Below are positions 2,652 to 25,572 of a DNA stretch of 64,000 nt, piece after piece. Position numbers and translations under genes: made by a program. The DNA is from Candidatus Poribacteria bacterium (lineage in GTDB: Bacteria; Poribacteria; WGA-4E; PCPOR2b). The notes under the pieces were generated by a model. It did no database searches. It worked only from the letters and a program-made list of their open reading frames with translations, and had not been told where the DNA came from. The stretch's first letter is position 1; each line of letters opens with the position of its first letter. Location: positions 1 through 64,000 of the forward strand of contig JAJEAL010000085.1 of assembly GCA_022822785.1 (NCBI GenBank). The letters run 5' to 3'.

Positions 2652-3016
2652 TCAATCTCTCCTTTCGATGCCAAACACCACCACAAAATAGATTTGGTAG
2701 AATTTCATCGGCATTGTGAAACGTCCACCATGCCTCAAAGGCTCCGGGTGAATTAACTCAATAATTTCCGTGTACCGATTTGGCTGACATTTTCCTCCCT
2801 ATTTAAGCAGCAGGAAAATTATATCATGATAGTGGGATACCGTCGAGAGAAAAGCAAGCAGTTGGTGAGCCCGCAACAGAAAAATGGCTTCGGCTAAACG
2901 TCATATGGGAAGTTGTACCCAATCAATGTTAGCGAACTTGATATATATCACCGCTTGACAATGTTTCTCACACAGTGTTACTATTTTTCAAACAGAAATT
3001 CAAGGAGGATTGATTG
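2652..3016. other. Intergenic stretch with a possible decayed minus-strand ORF and queF promoter
   Basis: Most of the sequence upstream of queF holds no intact gene. On the minus strand an open stretch ending at a TGA at 2652-2654 reads sensibly (…RYTEIIELIHPEPL…) back to about 2790, where a TAG stops it. It has no start codon in frame. A well-placed GGAGG-ATG just upstream is in a different frame, as if one base had been lost or gained. It may be a gene remnant or chance. The queF promoter is listed separately. Confidence 0.25.
2955..2984 (+). promoter_or_regulatory. Candidate sigma70 promoter of queF
   Basis: A perfect TTGACA lies at 2955-2960. After 18 bases there is TACTAT (2979-2984), a four-of-six match to TATAAT. 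Transcription would start about 25 bases before the queF ATG, leaving room for the AGGAGG at 3003-3008. No preQ1 riboswitch-like fold is visible in so short a leader. Confidence 0.45.
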
Positions 3017-3430
3017 ATGGATCATCAATCTTATAGTAGATTACAGGACGACATCCGCGAAATGGAAACGCCGAGCATCGAAACTTGGAAAAACGAGTAC
3101 AGCGATAACGATTACACTATTGAAATCACGAATCCAGAATTCACGGCAGTTTGTCCTAAAACCGGGTTACCGGACTTTGGAACGATTCAGATTACCTATG
3201 TTCCCGATGAACAATGCGTGGAACTCAAATCGCTGAAAGAGTACTTTTTATTTTTCCGGGATGTCGGGATTTTTCATGAGCACGTTGTTAATAAAATTCT
3301 GGCTGATTTTGTTGTGGCGTGCAACCCGCGGCAGGTCGAGATTGTTGGGGATTTTCACATCCGCGGGGGTATGAAAACCGTCGTCCGTGTTAATTATGAA
3401 CGCGAAGACATGCCGCAAATCCAGTCGTAG
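3017..3430 (+). CDS. queF: NADPH-dependent 7-cyano-7-deazaguanine reductase QueF
   Basis: QueF reduces the nitrile of preQ0 to the primary amine of preQ1 in queuosine tRNA modification. This 137-residue copy is the short unimodular type. It shows the catalytic cysteine in AVCPKTG (C46), the aspartate seven residues later (D53), the ELKSLKEY stretch (69-76) that defines the family's NADPH-binding motif, and FHEH (86-89). The ATG at 3017 is eight bases after AGGAGG; a TTG at 3014 is less well spaced. Other queuosine genes are not in this window, so it stands alone. Confidence 0.95.
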   Translation: MDHQSYSRLQDDIREMETPSIETWKNEYSDNDYTIEITNPEFTAVCPKTGLPDFGTIQITYVPDEQCVELKSLKEYFLFFRDVGIFHEHVVNKILADFVVACNPRQVEIVGDFHIRGGMKTVVRVNYEREDMPQIQS

Positions 3431-3661: not shown

Positions 3662-4252
3662 CTACCACCGACTCATCTCAAAATTATGTAATCCGTGCCG
3701 GAATACAACAACGCTGCCTCCGTGCGCTAGAAGCATCTTGATCTCATACTGACTGAACCAACTAATAACCCCCGTGATCATCTCCCCACCTCTGAGGGTT
3801 AGGCACGTCGGAATTTTTTCCCTGCGGCAACGTGCAAGCACACGGTCATCAACCTGAAATCGCTCAGACTTATGAACAATCGAGACCAAATTTTGTGCTT
3901 TTAATCCCGCGTCCACTTCAATATCCTGAATAACGTGGGACATCTCATCCTTTTTGTACATATACTTGATGTTGAATTTTTCAAGATGATGCACGTCTCC
4001 ATCGGCTAGGACAACAAGGGTATAAGTTAGGCGGCGGTTGATGATACCCTCAATGCGTTTCCCATAAAGTTCAAAAACCATCGGCGTTTTTCTCCGAATC
4101 TGCTTTTGGACATAAACACGTCCGTGGCTTTCGGCACGGATTTGGGTTAGCAGCTCTGGAGATAGCTGCCGACGGCTATGATATGAGGATTTACGGTGTT
4201 GATTTGGACGCTTGGATTGACGAAAATTTTTTCGTGGTTGTGAATTTTGCAT
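3662..4252 (-). CDS. Basic protein with two Hfq/Sm-like domains
   Basis: This 196-residue protein has no name I recognise, but two stretches resemble the Hfq/Sm fold. The N terminus (1-50) is rich in R, K, Q and S, as in a disordered RNA-binding tail. Residues about 51-100 read K-x-P-x-x-x-x-L-x-G-x-x-x-x-G-x-I and end in KFNIKY. Residues about 143-192 read K-I-P-T-x-L-T-L-R-G-G-E and end in VVVFRHGLHNF, which parallels the YKHAIST of the Sm2 motif in Hfq. Hfq is normally one domain of 70-100 residues forming a hexamer, so a tandem protein could form a trimer of dimers. The RNA-binding role is inferred. The start has only a weak purine-rich site. The gene is isolated. Confidence 0.6.
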   Translation of the reverse strand: MQNSQPRKNFRQSKRPNQHRKSSYHSRRQLSPELLTQIRAESHGRVYVQKQIRRKTPMVFELYGKRIEGIINRRLTYTLVVLADGDVHHLEKFNIKYMYKKDEMSHVIQDIEVDAGLKAQNLVSIVHKSERFQVDDRVLARCRREKIPTCLTLRGGEMITGVISWFSQYEIKMLLAHGGSVVVFRHGLHNFEMSRW

Positions 4253-4554: not shown

Positions 4555-4594
4555 AACATAAAAAAAGGCGTCTGGGAAAGATATCCCAAACGCC
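4555..4594 (-). terminator. Rho-independent terminator of the large TPR gene
   Basis: On the minus strand, GGCGTTTGGG (one mismatch) pairs with CCCAGACGCC across an eight-base loop and is followed by seven T. It sits 38 bases after the stop codon of the 1565-residue TPR gene. Confidence 0.85.
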
Positions 4595-4631
4595 TCGGTT
4601 GAAATGGAGTTGATGAATCCAGAACATGTGG

Positions 4632-7600
4632 TTATTCGCCGCCACCACCCCCACCGGTACGACGTGGAATGTTCTGCGATCTCATATACTCCGTGATTGT
4701 GGTAATTTGACTTTGCGAGTATCTCAAAGCTGTGTTGACCTGTGTATCGCTAGGTGGGACCTCAGAATATTTACTCCACAGCCCATCAAAGGCGTCAAGC
4801 GCGTCGTTATAGTACTCATCATTCTCACCCGCTAACAACATATACGCTTCACCAATCTGGACTAAAGAAAGGTCGGCGTATTTAGTAGTCGGATAGATTT
4901 TGATGATTTCTCTGAACCCAGCGATGGCATTTTCCACAGCTTCTTTCTGTTGATCTTCAGGCGCCACTTTTGCCCGATCGAAATTGGCAGTGGCTTGAAT
5001 ATACACATCTGCCGAGAGTGCGCTCTTGGTATCGCGCAGGAACAGTTCGGCATTCTCTTTCGATTCCGCATTGATACCGGGAACCGCCAACGCCTTCTCA
5101 TACTGTTCGATCGCCATTGTATAGAAGCGGATACGGTCTTCTTCTGTAGCATCGGGGAGCACCCCTTGGTTGTAGTAGGTGTTACCGATGTTGAGAAATG
5201 CCTCAGCTGCAAAAGGACTGGTTGGGTAGTTCCCCGCGAGAACTTCGTTCACCTCAAAGACCTTTGCTAACCATTTCTCCTTATCCGCTTCATCCTCGGT
5301 ATTTTTCTCAAGCAACGCATAGCAAGTCGAAATTGCGGCGAGGGATTCAGCTGCCTGTTCATGCTGCGGATTGATGTTGCGCACCTTGGTATATTCGCCA
5401 ATAGCGTTCTGGAACTGTTGACCCGCAAAGTACGCCTCACCCGCCTGATACTGCCAGAACGGTGCCTCCGGTGCATTAGGGAATCGTCGAGCGAGGTCCA
5501 TGAACACAGATGCTGACTGCTCAAAGAAGCTAACAGTTTTCTCAGAAAACCCTTCGTCGAAACCGAGCTGCATCCGTCCCAACTCATAATAGGTGGGAGC
5601 GAGATAGCCCAATACGGTCTGGACATTTTTTGCGACATCCGCTTGTGACGAAACAGCGAAAATGCCCTTATCCGCATACTCGACGAATTGCTTCAGCACC
5701 GGAACAGCACTATTGAGGTCATCAGGTAGCTTGATTCCTGTGCCGAGCGAATAGTAGATTTGCCCGGCTGAGAAGAGCGCGTTCTGAATAAACGGACTTA
5801 TGGTATCATCAATCTCATCAGCAGATGCCATATTAGCCGCTTCAACATAGGTGGTAGCGGCTTGTCGGCTCGCATCGATATACGGTTGCAAATCGGTGCC
5901 CGGCTTGTCGGAAAAGAGTTTCCGCGCTTGGTCAAAATAGAGGAAACCGAGATTATATTGTGCCGAAACTTTCTGCGCAGTCGTTTGCGCTGCGTCGCGA
6001 GCAGCGATGGCTTGAGCGATTGCCTCCTCCATACGACCTAACTCCACGTAAAGGTCAGACCGACGAATACCACCGTCGGCCGCCATGGATTGGATGCTAG
6101 CATTAGATTCACCACCGAATTGGTTAATCAAGGTTTCATATGCTTTCAGTGCATTCTCAGCGTCATTCAATCTCTCTTGGTAAATCAACCCCATCCGATA
6201 ATATGCTTGTGCTCGGATGAGCGGATCTTTCGACAGCTGAATCGCGTTTTGATAGTTGAGGAGCGAATCACTATACTGTTTAAGATGCTCGTCCTGAGCA
6301 TACGCTATAGAGAAGTAGGAACGCCCCTTCTGATCGTCATCATCGGTATGCTGAATCACATACTGATATTCTCGCACGGCTGCTGCATGATCGCCAACAG
6401 CAGTATTCAAATCTGCGAGACGGGTATGTGCTTGACTAATGAGATCTTGTCGGGCTTTGTCCTCTGTCTGACCCTCATACGAGGTAGTCTGACGAAATGC
6501 TGCAATCGCTCCATTGTTATCATTAAGCGCGTATTTTGCCAGCCCTATTGTGTAATAGGCACTGATTGCGGCATCAGCATCGGGGTCGCTGTCAGTAACC
6601 TGCATCGCAGTACTTACAGCATTCTGGAATGCAAGCTGCTTTGCACCTTCATCCGTGCTTTTTTGACCGATCTGATAGTAGCAAACCGATGCCTGATATA
6701 GCGCATTTTTCGCGAGCTCATTATTAGGGAACATCTGAACGAATCCTTGATACTCAGCGAGCGCTTTTTCGTGATTACCGTCACCGTAATACAGGTGCCC
6801 AATTTTCAGCTGGGCGCGTGAACGAGAATCTTCTGGCGCACCAGGATTCTGAACAATTCGCCTTAGACTCGCAATGAGTTCGGCTTTCTCTTCTTCAGAT
6901 TCGAGCCCTTGCCTCTCAATAGCGGTCGCTTTGACCAAATCTATATGACCCAAAGTCTTTTGGATTGTGGTGTTATCGCTACTGCCATGCATTTCGTAAG
7001 CAGCATCGGCAATCTCTAGCACCTTTGGCCACACGCTTTCATTTCCAGCTAGCGCCATGTCACGATAAGCGAGTGCTAGTCCGTAATAAGACTCAACCGC
7101 ATTTGGACTATCCGCATAATCCGCAATTGCTTTTTCAAAGGCAGCGACGGATTTATCCAGGAGCGCCGCATCATCATCTGCGGCTTTAGCGGCTCTGTAG
7201 TAACACAACCCAACAAGATACTGTGCATCATCGGCATATTCACCTGTTGGATTACCTGCAACAACGCGTTCGTATTCAGCTGCTGCCTCGGCAAATCGTT
7301 CTTCAGAGCGCAGCAGGTCTGCCAGCTTAATTTCTGCAAGTGACCGGTTATCCGTATCCAGACCGTCCATTATAGACTGATAATGCGCCACAGCTTCGCT
7401 GTTCTTGCCCTCTTTAACAAGACTTTGTGCAATTAGGAGCTGTGCACGTTGATAATTATCGCTGCCTGGGAGGACCGCTTGGTAGAGTTCACGCGCTTTG
7501 CCCCACGCATTTAGTTTTTCGTGGGAGAGTGCTTGATTCATGACACAGGCTTCAACCTGCATTGGACGCTGGGGGAAATCGTCATAACGTCCCTGCTCGA

Positions 7601-9329
7601 CGCCGTCGAGGTAGGTCCCGCTTTCGCCGCCCATAATTTCTGGGCCCTTGAACTTATCGATGGCTTGTTGGTAAGCACTCACAGCCTTTTGGAGCAGCGC
7701 TTCGTTGAAGACCGCGTCTGCATCGCCCTCACGATAGCCCTCCGGTTTGGAGGCTTCATAGTATGATCGCGCTTCCTGAAATTTTCCAATCAATTTGATT
7801 AAGTGGAATTTCGGGAAATCACGATAATCCCAAAGTTTAGCGTATTCCGCGGCGGCATCCTCATACTGCTTAAAGTCATTAAATTTCAGATCTGCAAACT
7901 TCAACTGCACTTCAGCCGCGAGCAGGTCAAGTTCGCTATCCATTCGGTTTTTATCAATAAATTCCCTAGCGACAGTTTCTAGCTCATCCTTTCGTCCAAG
8001 CGCATTCAACGCCCAGATAGCACCATAGAGTGCATGAGACGCAACGGGGTCTGCTGGGAACTCATCGACAGCTTTCTGATACCACATAAGTGCTTCTTCA
8101 TAGGACGCGTTTGCAGCATCTGTTTGACCATCATCCTTCAAGTCAGAAGCTAGCTTATAATTCGACTCCCCCATCTGATAGGTAACATAAGGGATAAAAT
8201 CGGTCTCTTCGGGATGTTCGTTCAGAACACGTTGGTATGCAGCAGCAGCTTCGGCCCAAGCGCTTGACTTGAAGTAGCTATCGGCAATACCAAGTTTCGC
8301 TTCACTAATAAAGTCGCATTCTGGATACTCCTCAAGCAGCACGTTGTATGATTCCACAGCGTTGGTGTAGTCTTGCTGCTCGTAGTAGGTGCGTCCAATA
8401 GTTACCTGAATTTCTGCTTGTAGGTCTCGATCGTCTGTATTCTGCAGAGCGAGTTCATAGTTGACGCGTGCATTGTCATAGTCTTTCTGTTTTGAATAGA
8501 TTGCACCCGTATCAAAATAGGCAGCGGTTACATAGCCACTCGTCGGGTGTTCCGTGATAAATTGGGTATATCTGCCAATTGCCTCTTCATCACGGGCAAG
8601 TTGATTCAAACAGAAGGCGGCTTTGTACATCGCCTCCGCCTGCAAGTCTACGAAAGTCTTAAATTCTTCGGTAGCCAGCTTATCAAATTCGGGGTAAGCC
8701 TGCTCGTAATTTTTTTCGTTGAGGAAGGACTGTGCAATTAGGTGTTGTGCATCATCTTTGAAATCTGAATTGGGAAATCCGTCGAGCACTTCTTTGTATG
8801 CTCGACGCGCTGCATCATATTTTTGCAGTTTATAGTTGAGCTGTCCAATTGCGTACCAAGCATTTTCGACAAACAGACTATTGGGGAAATTTTCAATTAA
8901 GGTGTGGAACTTAGGTTCAGCCAGTTCAAATTTCTCCTGTTTGTAAAGGACGTGTCCCCATAGGTAGGTTAATCCTTCTTGATGCTTCGGTACAGTGGCA
9001 TTCGGTGCAACCTTTTCAATCTGCTCGATTGCATTATCATAGTAGGTAATATCACCGCTCTGCTCAGCCCATTTTGAGTAGCTGACGGCGATTTTGTAAT
9101 TTGCCAGTGTATTGAAGTCTTTATCAATGACCTCAGTTTTTACACCCCATTTAACAGATTCTTCAAGACCTTCATTGTATTTTGCAATTGCCCCTTCGTA
9201 ATCATTTTGACTGTAGAGCTGTTCTGCTTCGTTATAAAGTCGTTCGACCTTTTTCGAGCTGCCTGCGGGCCAGAACAGAACGACAGCTAAAGCGACTCCG
9301 GCAAGGACGCCTAAAAGTCTCGGATTCAT
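4632..9329 (-). CDS. Giant membrane-anchored TPR protein
   Basis: This 1565-residue protein is almost entirely tetratricopeptide repeats. One N-terminal hydrophobic segment (about residues 5-22, LLGVLAGVALAVVLFWPAG) acts as an uncleaved anchor or signal. It is followed by dozens of roughly 34-residue helical pairs of the form A-x-x-x-Y-x-x-(I/V)-L-x-x-(F/Y)-P, of the YbgF/BamD-like kind, as in YDAARRAYKEVLDGFPNS. The C terminus ends in a run of glycines and a glutamate. Such proteins are extracytoplasmic scaffolds; the partner is unknown. AAGGAG stands six bases before the start. It lies downstream of an ECF sigma/anti-sigma pair on the same strand (200-base gap) and ends at a strong terminator, so it may belong to that regulon. 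Confidence 0.85.
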   Translation of the reverse strand: MNPRLLGVLAGVALAVVLFWPAGSSKKVERLYNEAEQLYSQNDYEGAIAKYNEGLEESVKWGVKTEVIDKDFNTLANYKIAVSYSKWAEQSGDITYYDNAIEQIEKVAPNATVPKHQEGLTYLWGHVLYKQEKFELAEPKFHTLIENFPNSLFVENAWYAIGQLNYKLQKYDAARRAYKEVLDGFPNSDFKDDAQHLIAQSFLNEKNYEQAYPEFDKLATEEFKTFVDLQAEAMYKAAFCLNQLARDEEAIGRYTQFITEHPTSGYVTAAYFDTGAIYSKQKDYDNARVNYELALQNTDDRDLQAEIQVTIGRTYYEQQDYTNAVESYNVLLEEYPECDFISEAKLGIADSYFKSSAWAEAAAAYQRVLNEHPEETDFIPYVTYQMGESNYKLASDLKDDGQTDAANASYEEALMWYQKAVDEFPADPVASHALYGAIWALNALGRKDELETVAREFIDKNRMDSELDLLAAEVQLKFADLKFNDFKQYEDAAAEYAKLWDYRDFPKFHLIKLIGKFQEARSYYEASKPEGYREGDADAVFNEALLQKAVSAYQQAIDKFKGPEIMGGESGTYLDGVEQGRYDDFPQRPMQVEACVMNQALSHEKLNAWGKARELYQAVLPGSDNYQRAQLLIAQSLVKEGKNSEAVAHYQSIMDGLDTDNRSLAEIKLADLLRSEERFAEAAAEYERVVAGNPTGEYADDAQYLVGLCYYRAAKAADDDAALLDKSVAAFEKAIADYADSPNAVESYYGLALAYRDMALAGNESVWPKVLEIADAAYEMHGSSDNTTIQKTLGHIDLVKATAIERQGLESEEEKAELIASLRRIVQNPGAPEDSRSRAQLKIGHLYYGDGNHEKALAEYQGFVQMFPNNELAKNALYQASVCYYQIGQKSTDEGAKQLAFQNAVSTAMQVTDSDPDADAAISAYYTIGLAKYALNDNNGAIAAFRQTTSYEGQTEDKARQDLISQAHTRLADLNTAVGDHAAAVREYQYVIQHTDDDDQKGRSYFSIAYAQDEHLKQYSDSLLNYQNAIQLSKDPLIRAQAYYRMGLIYQERLNDAENALKAYETLINQFGGESNASIQSMAADGGIRRSDLYVELGRMEEAIAQAIAARDAAQTTAQKVSAQYNLGFLYFDQARKLFSDKPGTDLQPYIDASRQAATTYVEAANMASADEIDDTISPFIQNALFSAGQIYYSLGTGIKLPDDLNSAVPVLKQFVEYADKGIFAVSSQADVAKNVQTVLGYLAPTYYELGRMQLGFDEGFSEKTVSFFEQSASVFMDLARRFPNAPEAPFWQYQAGEAYFAGQQFQNAIGEYTKVRNINPQHEQAAESLAAISTCYALLEKNTEDEADKEKWLAKVFEVNEVLAGNYPTSPFAAEAFLNIGNTYYNQGVLPDATEEDRIRFYTMAIEQYEKALAVPGINAESKENAELFLRDTKSALSADVYIQATANFDRAKVAPEDQQKEAVENAIAGFREIIKIYPTTKYADLSLVQIGEAYMLLAGENDEYYNDALDAFDGLWSKYSEVPPSDTQVNTALRYSQSQITTITEYMRSQNIPRRTGGGGGGE

Positions 9330-23647: not shown

Positions 23648-24505
23648 CTAAATACTCGCGAGAACCACACGCTCAATACCGGCATAATCCTGGATGACTT
23701 CACAACGTTGATAGGCTGGTTCGGATTTAATCAGGTCTTGAACAGCGTAGCTTTGGTTGTGACCAATTTCCAAGATGAGTTTTCCTTCCGTATTCAAGTA
23801 CTGGGGTGCATCGGTTACGAGACGCCGAATGATATCAAGTCCATCAACCCCAGCAAAAAGTGCAACCTCCGGTTCGTGCTTCCGAACATCCGGCGGGAGG
23901 GTCGAGGCCTCGTCAACACTCACATAAGGTGGATTGGACGCAATCCAATCAAAATGGGTGTCGGATAGTTGCTGCAACGGTTCAAACAGATCGCCCTGAA
24001 GGAGTGTGAGTCGATCCGCGCAGTTATGGTTGAGCGCATTCCGCTCGGCTACTTCTAGGGCCTCTATTGAGAAATCTGTGGCGATTAGCTCCCAATCGGG
24101 TCGGTGATGAGCAGAGCTGATTGCGATGGCACCACAGCCTGTTCCGATGTCGACGAACCGACACGGTTCCTTCTGAAGTTCTAGCACTGTCTCAACTAGG
24201 ATTTCCGTCTCTGGTCGGGGAATTAGTACACGCGGATCTACATAGAAGTCGAGTGCCATAAACTCTTTGTGGTTTGTGAGGTAACTCACAGGGGTATGGT
24301 CAATCCGCTTTTTAATCAACTCCCGAAATTTTGAGAGTGCCTCTTGGAAAACGGGCATCTCAAAGGAGAGATAGAGTTGCAAGCGACTCTTTTGCAGGAG
24401 GTGTCCGAGCAACAGTTCCGCATCTAACCGCGGGGTGGGGACTTCATGACGTTCAAAGTATTCCGTCGTCCATTCGATAAGGTCAATAACGCGCCAGGTT
24501 TTCAC
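23648..24505 (-). CDS. prmC: Release factor glutamine methyltransferase PrmC (HemK)
   Basis: PrmC methylates the glutamine of the GGQ motif in release factors. The 285-residue protein has the helical N-terminal domain, then RVLIPRPETEILVE, the SAM loop VDIGTGCGAIAI (118-129) and the catalytic NPPYV (191-195). The start is GTG, overlapping the prfA stop codon as GTGA. Translation is therefore coupled to that of its substrate, a common arrangement in bacteria. Confidence 0.97.
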   Translation of the reverse strand: MKTWRVIDLIEWTTEYFERHEVPTPRLDAELLLGHLLQKSRLQLYLSFEMPVFQEALSKFRELIKKRIDHTPVSYLTNHKEFMALDFYVDPRVLIPRPETEILVETVLELQKEPCRFVDIGTGCGAIAISSAHHRPDWELIATDFSIEALEVAERNALNHNCADRLTLLQGDLFEPLQQLSDTHFDWIASNPPYVSVDEASTLPPDVRKHEPEVALFAGVDGLDIIRRLVTDAPQYLNTEGKLILEIGHNQSYAVQDLIKSEPAYQRCEVIQDYAGIERVVLASI

Positions 24506-25572
24506 GACGATAAGTTCTTCAACTGCTCCGCTTGTTCCGCGTCTATCAAGGCATCAATGAAAGTGTCAATCTCTCCATCTAAAACTGCCTCCAACTGATA
24601 AACACTTAAACCGATACGATGGTCTGTCACCCGACTTTGAGGGAAGTTATAGGTGCGAATTTTTTCACTTCGATCGCCGCTGCCAATCATGGACTTCCGC
24701 GTTTGGGCGCGTTCAGCTTCCTGTTCAGCTTGCATCTGTTCAAGTAGGCGGGAGCGCAAAATCTTCATCGCCTTGGCTCTATTTTTATGCTGGGATTTTT
24801 CATCTTGGCAAGATACAGTGAGTCCTGTAGGGATGTATGTAATTCGGATCGCGGAATCGGTTGTATTGACGCTCTGACCGCCTGGGCCCGATGAGCGAAA
24901 CGCCTCAATCCGTAGGTCTTCCGCGTCAATTTTGAGGTCCACCTCCTCTGCCTCCGGCAATACAGCAACGGTTACCGCTGATGTGTGGATTCGCCCGCTA
25001 GCTTCTGTGGTAGGGACGCGCTGCACACGGTGTGTACCGCCCTCAAACTTTAGCCGACTATATGCCCGGTCCCCGCTGATAGAAAAAGCGACTTCTTTGA
25101 AACCTTTTAGTCCGGTGGCATTAGAGTTGAGCAGTTCTATTTTCCAACCTTTATGCTCCGCGTATCTTGAATACATCCGGAAAAGTTCTCCGGCAAATAA
25201 ACTGGCTTCTTCTCCCCCGGTTCCCGCACGGATTTCCACAATCACATTCTTTTCAGCGTTTACATCCTTCGGTAGCAGTAAGATTTTCAGTTCTGTTTCT
25301 AAGTTATCTCTCTGCTCAGTAAGCAAATCGAGCTCCTGCTTAGCAAAGTCAATAAACTCAGCATCGGTCTCCTGTTCAAGCAGCGCAGCGGTCTCGTCAA
25401 TCTCTTTCGCTGTTTTTTGATATGCTGTATACTTCGAAACAATCGGCGCGAGTTCCGCGTGTGACTTCGCAAGTTTTTGTAAGTTTTGCCGATCGGCAAT
25501 TTGCACAGGATCTGCTAAGTTCTTTTCAATTTCTAAATATGTCGCTTCTATCTCTTTTAACTTCTCAAGCAT
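24502..25572 (-). CDS. prfA: Peptide chain release factor 1
   Basis: RF1 reads UAA and UAG and triggers peptide release. The 356-residue product has the PxT anticodon-like motif (P187-T-T in RVPTTEASGR), which marks RF1 and not RF2, and the catalytic GGQ at 231-233. The N-terminal coiled-coil domain and the tail NFPQSRVTDHRIGL are also typical. It overlaps prmC by four bases. No good Shine-Dalgarno sequence precedes the ATG. Confidence 0.98.
   Translation of the reverse strand: MLEKLKEIEATYLEIEKNLADPVQIADRQNLQKLAKSHAELAPIVSKYTAYQKTAKEIDETAALLEQETDAEFIDFAKQELDLLTEQRDNLETELKILLLPKDVNAEKNVIVEIRAGTGGEEASLFAGELFRMYSRYAEHKGWKIELLNSNATGLKGFKEVAFSISGDRAYSRLKFEGGTHRVQRVPTTEASGRIHTSAVTVAVLPEAEEVDLKIDAEDLRIEAFRSSGPGGQSVNTTDSAIRITYIPTGLTVSCQDEKSQHKNRAKAMKILRSRLLEQMQAEQEAERAQTRKSMIGSGDRSEKIRTYNFPQSRVTDHRIGLSVYQLEAVLDGEIDTFIDALIDAEQAEQLKNLSS

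Follow-up and report, generated by a model that had tools for sequence, protein, structure and literature searches.

Close to one end of the stretch of Candidatus Poribacteria contig JAJEAL010000085.1 analyzed here (64,000 nucleotides; the window), a short minus-strand gene raises the question of whether these bacteria carry, in place of ordinary Hfq, a protein with two unlike Hfq domains in a single chain. The sequence-only reading of the locus had proposed a tandem Hfq/Sm-like protein, P0001, with dissimilar halves behind a basic, Q-rich tail. The gene, its parts, and its surroundings are as follows:

3662..4252, minus strand: coding sequence of the tandem Hfq-like protein P0001 (196 amino acids plus stop, ATG start)
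4160..4252, minus strand: basic, Q-rich disordered N-terminal tail (residues 1-31; pLDDT 55-60)
3953..4159, minus strand: domain 1 (D1), a divergent Hfq fold (residues 32-100; helix H32-53 plus five strands in the AF2 model)
3854..3952, minus strand: structured linker (residues 101-133; from the AF2 model and spacer counts)
3665..3853, minus strand: domain 2 (D2), an Hfq domain (residues 134-196; about 134-193 in the model)
3014-3430, plus strand: queF, flanking the P0001 gene (TIGR03139, 157.9 bits)
4565..4596, minus strand: intrinsic-terminator-like hairpin with a T-run, following the upstream TPR-like gene (13 pairs)
4632-9329, minus strand: upstream neighbor, whose repeat-rich product of 1565 residues looks TPR-like by eye

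The P0001 ORF is a real gene, as indicated by dN/dS values of 0.09-0.23 against six relatives, which denote purifying selection, and by intact orthologues found across the phylum Poribacteria; together with the alignment, these rule out a chance ORF or sequence artefact. The gene adjoins queF and the TPR-like gene with no RNA operon around it, and this neighborhood, which includes other ordinary genes, is kept within the genus. Given the hairpin at 4565..4596, the tandem gene may be transcribed as a unit of its own; terminator-like sites in the region numbered 3, versus 1.4 in shuffled sequence. A promoter scan of the region returned three weak sites versus 2.1 expected by chance, and an Rfam scan of the window gave no match. 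Searches with P0001 against plasmids and phages were likewise negative in both. PHROG gave no match for P0001, and of the four proteins tried only L049 matched, via its cold-shock part. A contig search with P0001, suited to close relatives only, recovered 3 loci, all from Candidatus Poribacteria.

To assess the fold, we built an AF2 model of P0001 with 68 sequences drawn from 79 distinct ORFs; the 11 left out comprised eight within larger or fused proteins, two that had no usable start or lay at a contig edge, and one more of type C (see below). Mean pLDDT was 89, rising to about 98 in both halves. Each half was modeled as an N-terminal helix followed by a five-stranded Sm barrel, i.e., the Hfq/Sm fold, with strands 1 to 5 intact in both, including edge strands 4 and 5. 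These are the strands that join subunits in Hfq. The pTM was 0.78 even with about 37 residues disordered, which indicates that AF2 is confident of the mutual placement of D1 and D2. The best 50 matches listed by Foldseek for the full-length model were all Hfq entries. In the VIA comparison, D2 aligned to E. coli Hfq with a Z of 9.1 (rmsd 1.2 over 61 aligned residues), and the last three of the 50 matches listed for the full-length model were spliceosomal entries. D1 modeled alone, with 66 sequences after two of the 68 with insertions had been left out, reached a pLDDT of 91.9, and the best 50 matches listed were again all Hfq entries in Foldseek and VIA alike, the top ones having an E of 2.5e-4 in Foldseek and a Z of 11.1 in VIA (rmsd 1.6, 65 aligned; listed Z 10.0-11.1). 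Structure prediction thus bears out the proposal of a tandem Hfq/Sm protein at 3662-4252. Its two domains stand, but with wider limits than the residues 51-100 and 143-192 first assigned to them, since the model places them at 32-100 and about 134-193.

The tail is basic and Q-rich, as had been read from the sequence, with 9 K/R, 1 acidic residue, and 6 Q in 37 residues. The N terminus of P0001 is shorter than in most relatives and lacks their extra stretch around an xVWRxx motif; the profile match at this end extends upstream through a TAA. Two relatives of the window type (type A; L016:1183-2184 and L015:1381-2283) carry RGG-like arginine-glycine repeats in their tails.

The two halves differ markedly in how far their kinship with Hfq can be read from sequence. 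D2 matched the Pfam Hfq family PF17209 with an E of 9.9e-6 (25.5 bits, just below the cut-off of 27), the Hfq of PDB entry 6gwk with an E of 5.6e-4, and E. coli Hfq with an E of 1.5e-7 in hhalign. P0001 scored 25.9 bits against TIGR02383, whose cut-off is 61.7. Because it falls below the cut-offs of both families, we filed P0001 as an Hfq-fold relative, not as an equivalog member; some poribacterial paralogues and the outgroup protein L106 do exceed the Pfam Hfq cut-off. Across the 68 sequences, Pfam Hfq matched 49 (E <= 0.01) and the cold-shock domain 31. D1 of P0001 gave no Hfq match of its own in HMM searches and no significant hhalign alignment to E. coli Hfq, and even D1 and D2 aligned to each other with an E of only 0.003. 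The halves are unlike, as had been proposed, with D1 too divergent for direct profile matches.

D1 carries a conserved signature, KQ(I)R...TPMxF...Y, plus K92 within KYxYK. A link to ordinary Hfq came from outgroup genome G002, which belongs to another class of Poribacteria and holds a 96-residue single-domain Hfq frame (L106:4155-4442) that passes the cut-offs of both Pfam Hfq (29.5 bits for a cut-off of 27) and Hfq_1, its best family (40.6 for 27). L106 carries the D1 signature (YLLKQMREKTKM ... YYYK) and aligned to D1 in hhalign with an E of 3.1e-7, scoring 30.7 where none of 100 shuffles exceeded 15.9. Assignment of D1 to Hfq follows from the structure model and this bridge. The D1 of type-C proteins matched none of the single-domain Hfq tried. 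G002 also encodes a second Hfq_1-type protein (L107:3978-4385), a 135-amino-acid frame whose N-terminal part is long and charged and which scores 33.3 bits to Hfq_1.

A protein search recovered relatives in 78 of 84 Poribacteria genomes, and tandem proteins likewise occur in 78 of the 84. Classification of the fetched loci with six domain models, which left out one match resembling type B (G080:C1:4087667), distinguished three forms: type A, the window type, in 15 genomes; type B, in which a cold-shock domain precedes the tandem, in 67; and type C, made up of divergent paralogues, in 34. Type-B proteins without the cold-shock domain occur in G003, G012, and G015, and types A and C shared a genome in none of the 84. 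According to this census, 36 genomes encode one tandem protein, 31 two, 10 three, and one five. The six genomes without a tandem fall into two sets: G001 (88% complete) and G006, G007, and G010 (61-79% complete) gave no match at all, and G002 (91%) and G005 (79%) have single-domain forms instead. In G005, one locus (L109:3619-4200) encodes just one Hfq domain, preceded by a cold-shock domain, possibly an intermediate of the type-B form. A match at C54 of the same genome is a stop-broken remnant, and another at G013 C150, lying in a short, stop-broken frame only, was attributed to chance.

The two domains are held at a nearly constant distance. The spacer between the D1 and D2 models measured 27 residues in 127 of 133 tandem rows (A, 15/15; B, 68/71, a 72nd row, the single-domain L106, not being counted as tandem; C, 44/47). 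The exceptions measured 26 (two rows) and 28, 37, 50, and 57 (one each), and some of them reflect partial D1 matches or D1 insertions. Type-C D1 shares only 10-19% identity with D1 of P0001, so a near-fixed spacer despite such divergence argues for a rigid two-domain unit. In a tree of 43 D1, 43 D2 (both sampled from all 15 type-A, 14 type-B, and 14 type-C proteins), and five single Hfq domains over 66 columns, a branch with 100/97 support separated all 43 D1 from the 43 D2 and the five single domains, in an analysis that drew a tool warning for long branches and few columns. Given this clean split, all three forms probably go back to a single duplication that preceded their separation. Mutual information between D1 and D2 gave an overall signal that was largely lost when the A+B and C clades were taken separately, with no ring contact holding within clades.

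Does P0001 coexist with an ordinary Hfq in its own genome (G000)? A search of G000 with PF17209 found only the P0001 gene and one chance-level match (contig C52, E 0.88, within a 1053-residue frame of another kind), and no ordinary single-domain hfq, in line with the earlier impression that the classical gene is not obvious here. The only other Hfq-like gene that a profile search found in G000 encodes a 120-amino-acid protein with a coiled-coil-like N terminus and one Hfq-like half (EVLIFKHALCYI), at L125 (-)1456-1818, corresponding to G000:C89 about 24447-24800(-). This type of protein occurs in 7 of 84 genomes, and by eye the L125 gene lies near nadC-like and microcompartment shell-like genes. 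CsrA was looked for in G000 and not found; two stand-alone cold-shock proteins are present. Type B was not found in G000, although it is present, fused to its cold-shock domain, in seven of the other eight genomes of this family (G015-G022, G019 being the exception).

Retention of RNA-contact residues was scored against the E. coli Hfq sites that we take to be Q8/Q41 and the (Y)KH motif Y55-K56-H57 on the proximal face and Y25/K31 on the distal face. D1 holds a Lys at the K56 site in 63/68 sequences (K92 in P0001) and a His at the H57 site in 3/68; in most type-B and type-C proteins it lacks G34. D2 has His at the H57 site in 64/68 and R/K at the K56 site in 61/68; in P0001, F184-R185-H186 occupies the Y55-K56-H57 site, so that the motif is present in D2, with R185-H186 at the K56-H57 sites, and D1 keeps the Lys alone. 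The other sites are largely lost from D2 (Q8, 0/68; Q41, 8/68; Y25, 0/68; K31, 0/68), P0001 itself having Q168 at the Q41 position. Judged from these residues, D1 and D2 appear to share a redesigned proximal pore, and the distal-face pocket known from Hfq is gone. With only some of these contact residues retained in D2, P0001 cannot be presumed to have the RNA specificity of E. coli Hfq.

We lean toward reading P0001 as a tandem Hfq that arose by in-frame duplication and forms a three-chain, alternating D1/D2 pseudo-hexameric ring, serving as an RNA chaperone in place of ordinary Hfq. In this reading, an in-frame duplication of an ancestral poribacterial Hfq gene would have given two copies that diverged into D1 and D2 while kept at near-fixed spacing. 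Three chains may close into one pseudo-hexameric ring in which D1 and D2 alternate, and six identical RNA sites would thereby become three of each kind, D1 contributing the Lys at the Hfq K56 position (K92) and D2 the pair at the K56-H57 positions (R185-H186). The ring and its basic tail would bind single-stranded RNA and speed RNA-RNA pairing or remodeling, making the tandem protein the lineage's substitute for ordinary Hfq. Cold-shock domains bind single-stranded nucleic acid; the fusions to them in 67 genomes and the RGG-like tails of L015 and L016 point to an RNA role. Computation shows a real, conserved gene with a double Hfq fold, a fixed linker, and one probable origin; that three chains form an alternating ring which binds and chaperones RNA is what we infer.

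The same features bear on other arrangements. Six chains might instead stack as a double ring, one ring of D1 and one of D2, with the linker crossing between them. A linker about 30 residues long, helical in part and near-fixed in length, would suit such a bridge, and D1 and D2 have diverged enough for separate homo-rings; however, some full-length alignments to one Hfq chain run, weakly, from residue 33 into D2, which sets the start of D1 near D2, and the complementary retention of Lys and His fits one mixed pore more simply, so we deem the stacked form unlikely. It is also rather improbable that the protein keeps an Sm fold without forming a ring, D1 serving to bind proteins or as a scaffold and nucleic acid being touched by D2 alone or not at all. 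Loss of H57 from D1 in 65 of 68 rows and of G34 in most B and C forms would fit this, as does the precedent of BB0268/FlgV, once annotated as Hfq, which proved neither Hfq nor RNA-binding according to the part of PMC11607428 available. Unlike FlgV, however, both halves of P0001 match the Hfq fold, their five strands are intact including the edge strands, and K92, KYxYK, and H186 are conserved.

A further possibility, that the tandem is a nucleic-acid sensor or tether in phage defense and not a general RNA chaperone, arises from its paralogues. In ten genomes, type-C proteins, or D2 of that type, are joined to GmrSD, TmtA-like, or UvrD/GajB-like proteins:

L112:1506-3926, L038:5737-8430, L039:5724-8375, and L040:3889-6564: GmrSD-type restriction proteins with the Hfq domain (D2) near their end, followed in three of the four by a cold-shock domain (G055, G057, G071, G078; Pfam)
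L036:3036-6758 and L037:6080-9703: Sacsin/TmtA-like proteins with the tandem at the C terminus (G046, G040; Pfam, with PADLOC for L036)
L042:8142-11855: Sacsin/TmtA-like protein with the tandem near the N terminus (G052; Pfam, PADLOC)
L041:3255-7076, L113:738-4199, and L114:1094-5389: UvrD-type helicases with Hfq-like parts, identified by Pfam for L041 (G044, with S1 and GrpE; GajB in PADLOC) and by eye from similar N termini for the other two (G045, G041)

Five of the fused proteins (L036, L038, L041, L042, and L112) match defense models in PADLOC, which gave no match for L074, and an RNase_H_2 protein of G069 carries the tandem as well. As the fusions recur across different genomes, assembly chimeras are improbable, and the defense-type fusions suggest that phage immunity, too, can draw on Hfq modules. 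Against such a role for P0001 itself, the window type is unfused, sits in an ordinary genus-level neighborhood without a PADLOC match, and shares a genome with type C in 0/84; we give a defense function for it very little credence. We stop just short of endorsing a broader scenario, in which Poribacteria would have swapped a homohexameric Hfq for the alternating-ring tandem and reused the module in two ways: joined to cold-shock domains, it would make a composite chaperone of RNA that most of the phylum has retained; in GmrSD, TmtA-like, and helicase defense effectors, it would be the part that reads nucleic acid or serves assembly.

Eukaryotic Sm/LSm rings are made of unlike subunits and bacterial Hfq rings of identical ones. 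A phylum-wide bacterial Hfq in which the two halves always differ would offer a natural experiment on the effects of broken symmetry in an RNA chaperone. The tandem would also mark a possible seat of sRNA regulation, ordinary Hfq and CsrA not having been found in the genome examined. The question of a three-chain ring, raised for Zymomonas in 2010, is directly testable in the Poribacteria tandem.

Among known systems, P0001 resembles Hfq (PF17209; TIGR02383) in the fold of both halves, the sequence of D2, and the F/Y-R/K-H residues at Y55-K56-H57; it differs in having two unlike domains per chain, in a D2 below the family cut-offs, and in the loss of most of Q8, Q41, Y25, and K31. The Hfq_1 or cyanobacterial Hfq-related family (PF21979, NF047718), the best family of the outgroup L106 at 40.6 bits, is single-domain, and P0001 scores only 16.1 bits against it. 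Cold-shock proteins (PF00313) share their domain with the sister type-B proteins, whereas P0001 has none. Burkholderia Hfq2, as described in the accessible part of PMC7074383, is likewise a second, longer Hfq-like protein (175-216 aa), but it consists of a structured N-terminal region and an unstructured glycine-rich C terminus, not of two domains. FlgV has two transmembrane helices (available text of PMC11607428), where the AF2 model of P0001 has two beta-barrel domains instead. Within a literature search of partial coverage, we found no cold-shock-Hfq fusion, Hfq of Poribacteria, or Hfq-GmrSD fusion.

A known parallel contradicts the idea, implied by the sequence-only reading, that an Hfq with two domains has no precedent. 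Two Sm-like domains are present in the Hfq of Zymomonas mobilis (ZMO0347) and in those of six other Sphingomonadales, and the authors of that work asked whether three tandem chains make the ring, as far as the accessible text of PMC2877685 reports. NCBIfam NF010691 also spans two Hfq repeats, E. coli Hfq matching it at 23-79 and a poribacterial D2 at 114-159, and we infer that NF010691/PRK14091 is this Sphingomonadales tandem. Two Hfq domains in one polypeptide are common to both groups; however, P0001 reaches 28.4 bits against the NF010691 cut-off of 270, the NF010691 repeats lie about 80 positions apart (a derived value) versus 91 residues in P0001 (P57 to P148), and the poribacterial D1 lacks an HMM-detectable Hfq signal of its own. 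The poribacterial duplication is likely independent of the Sphingomonadales one. Two-domain Hfq as such is therefore already known from Zymomonas and other Sphingomonadales; what is new is the phylum-wide replacement proposed here, the strongly unlike halves, and the fusions to cold-shock and defense proteins.
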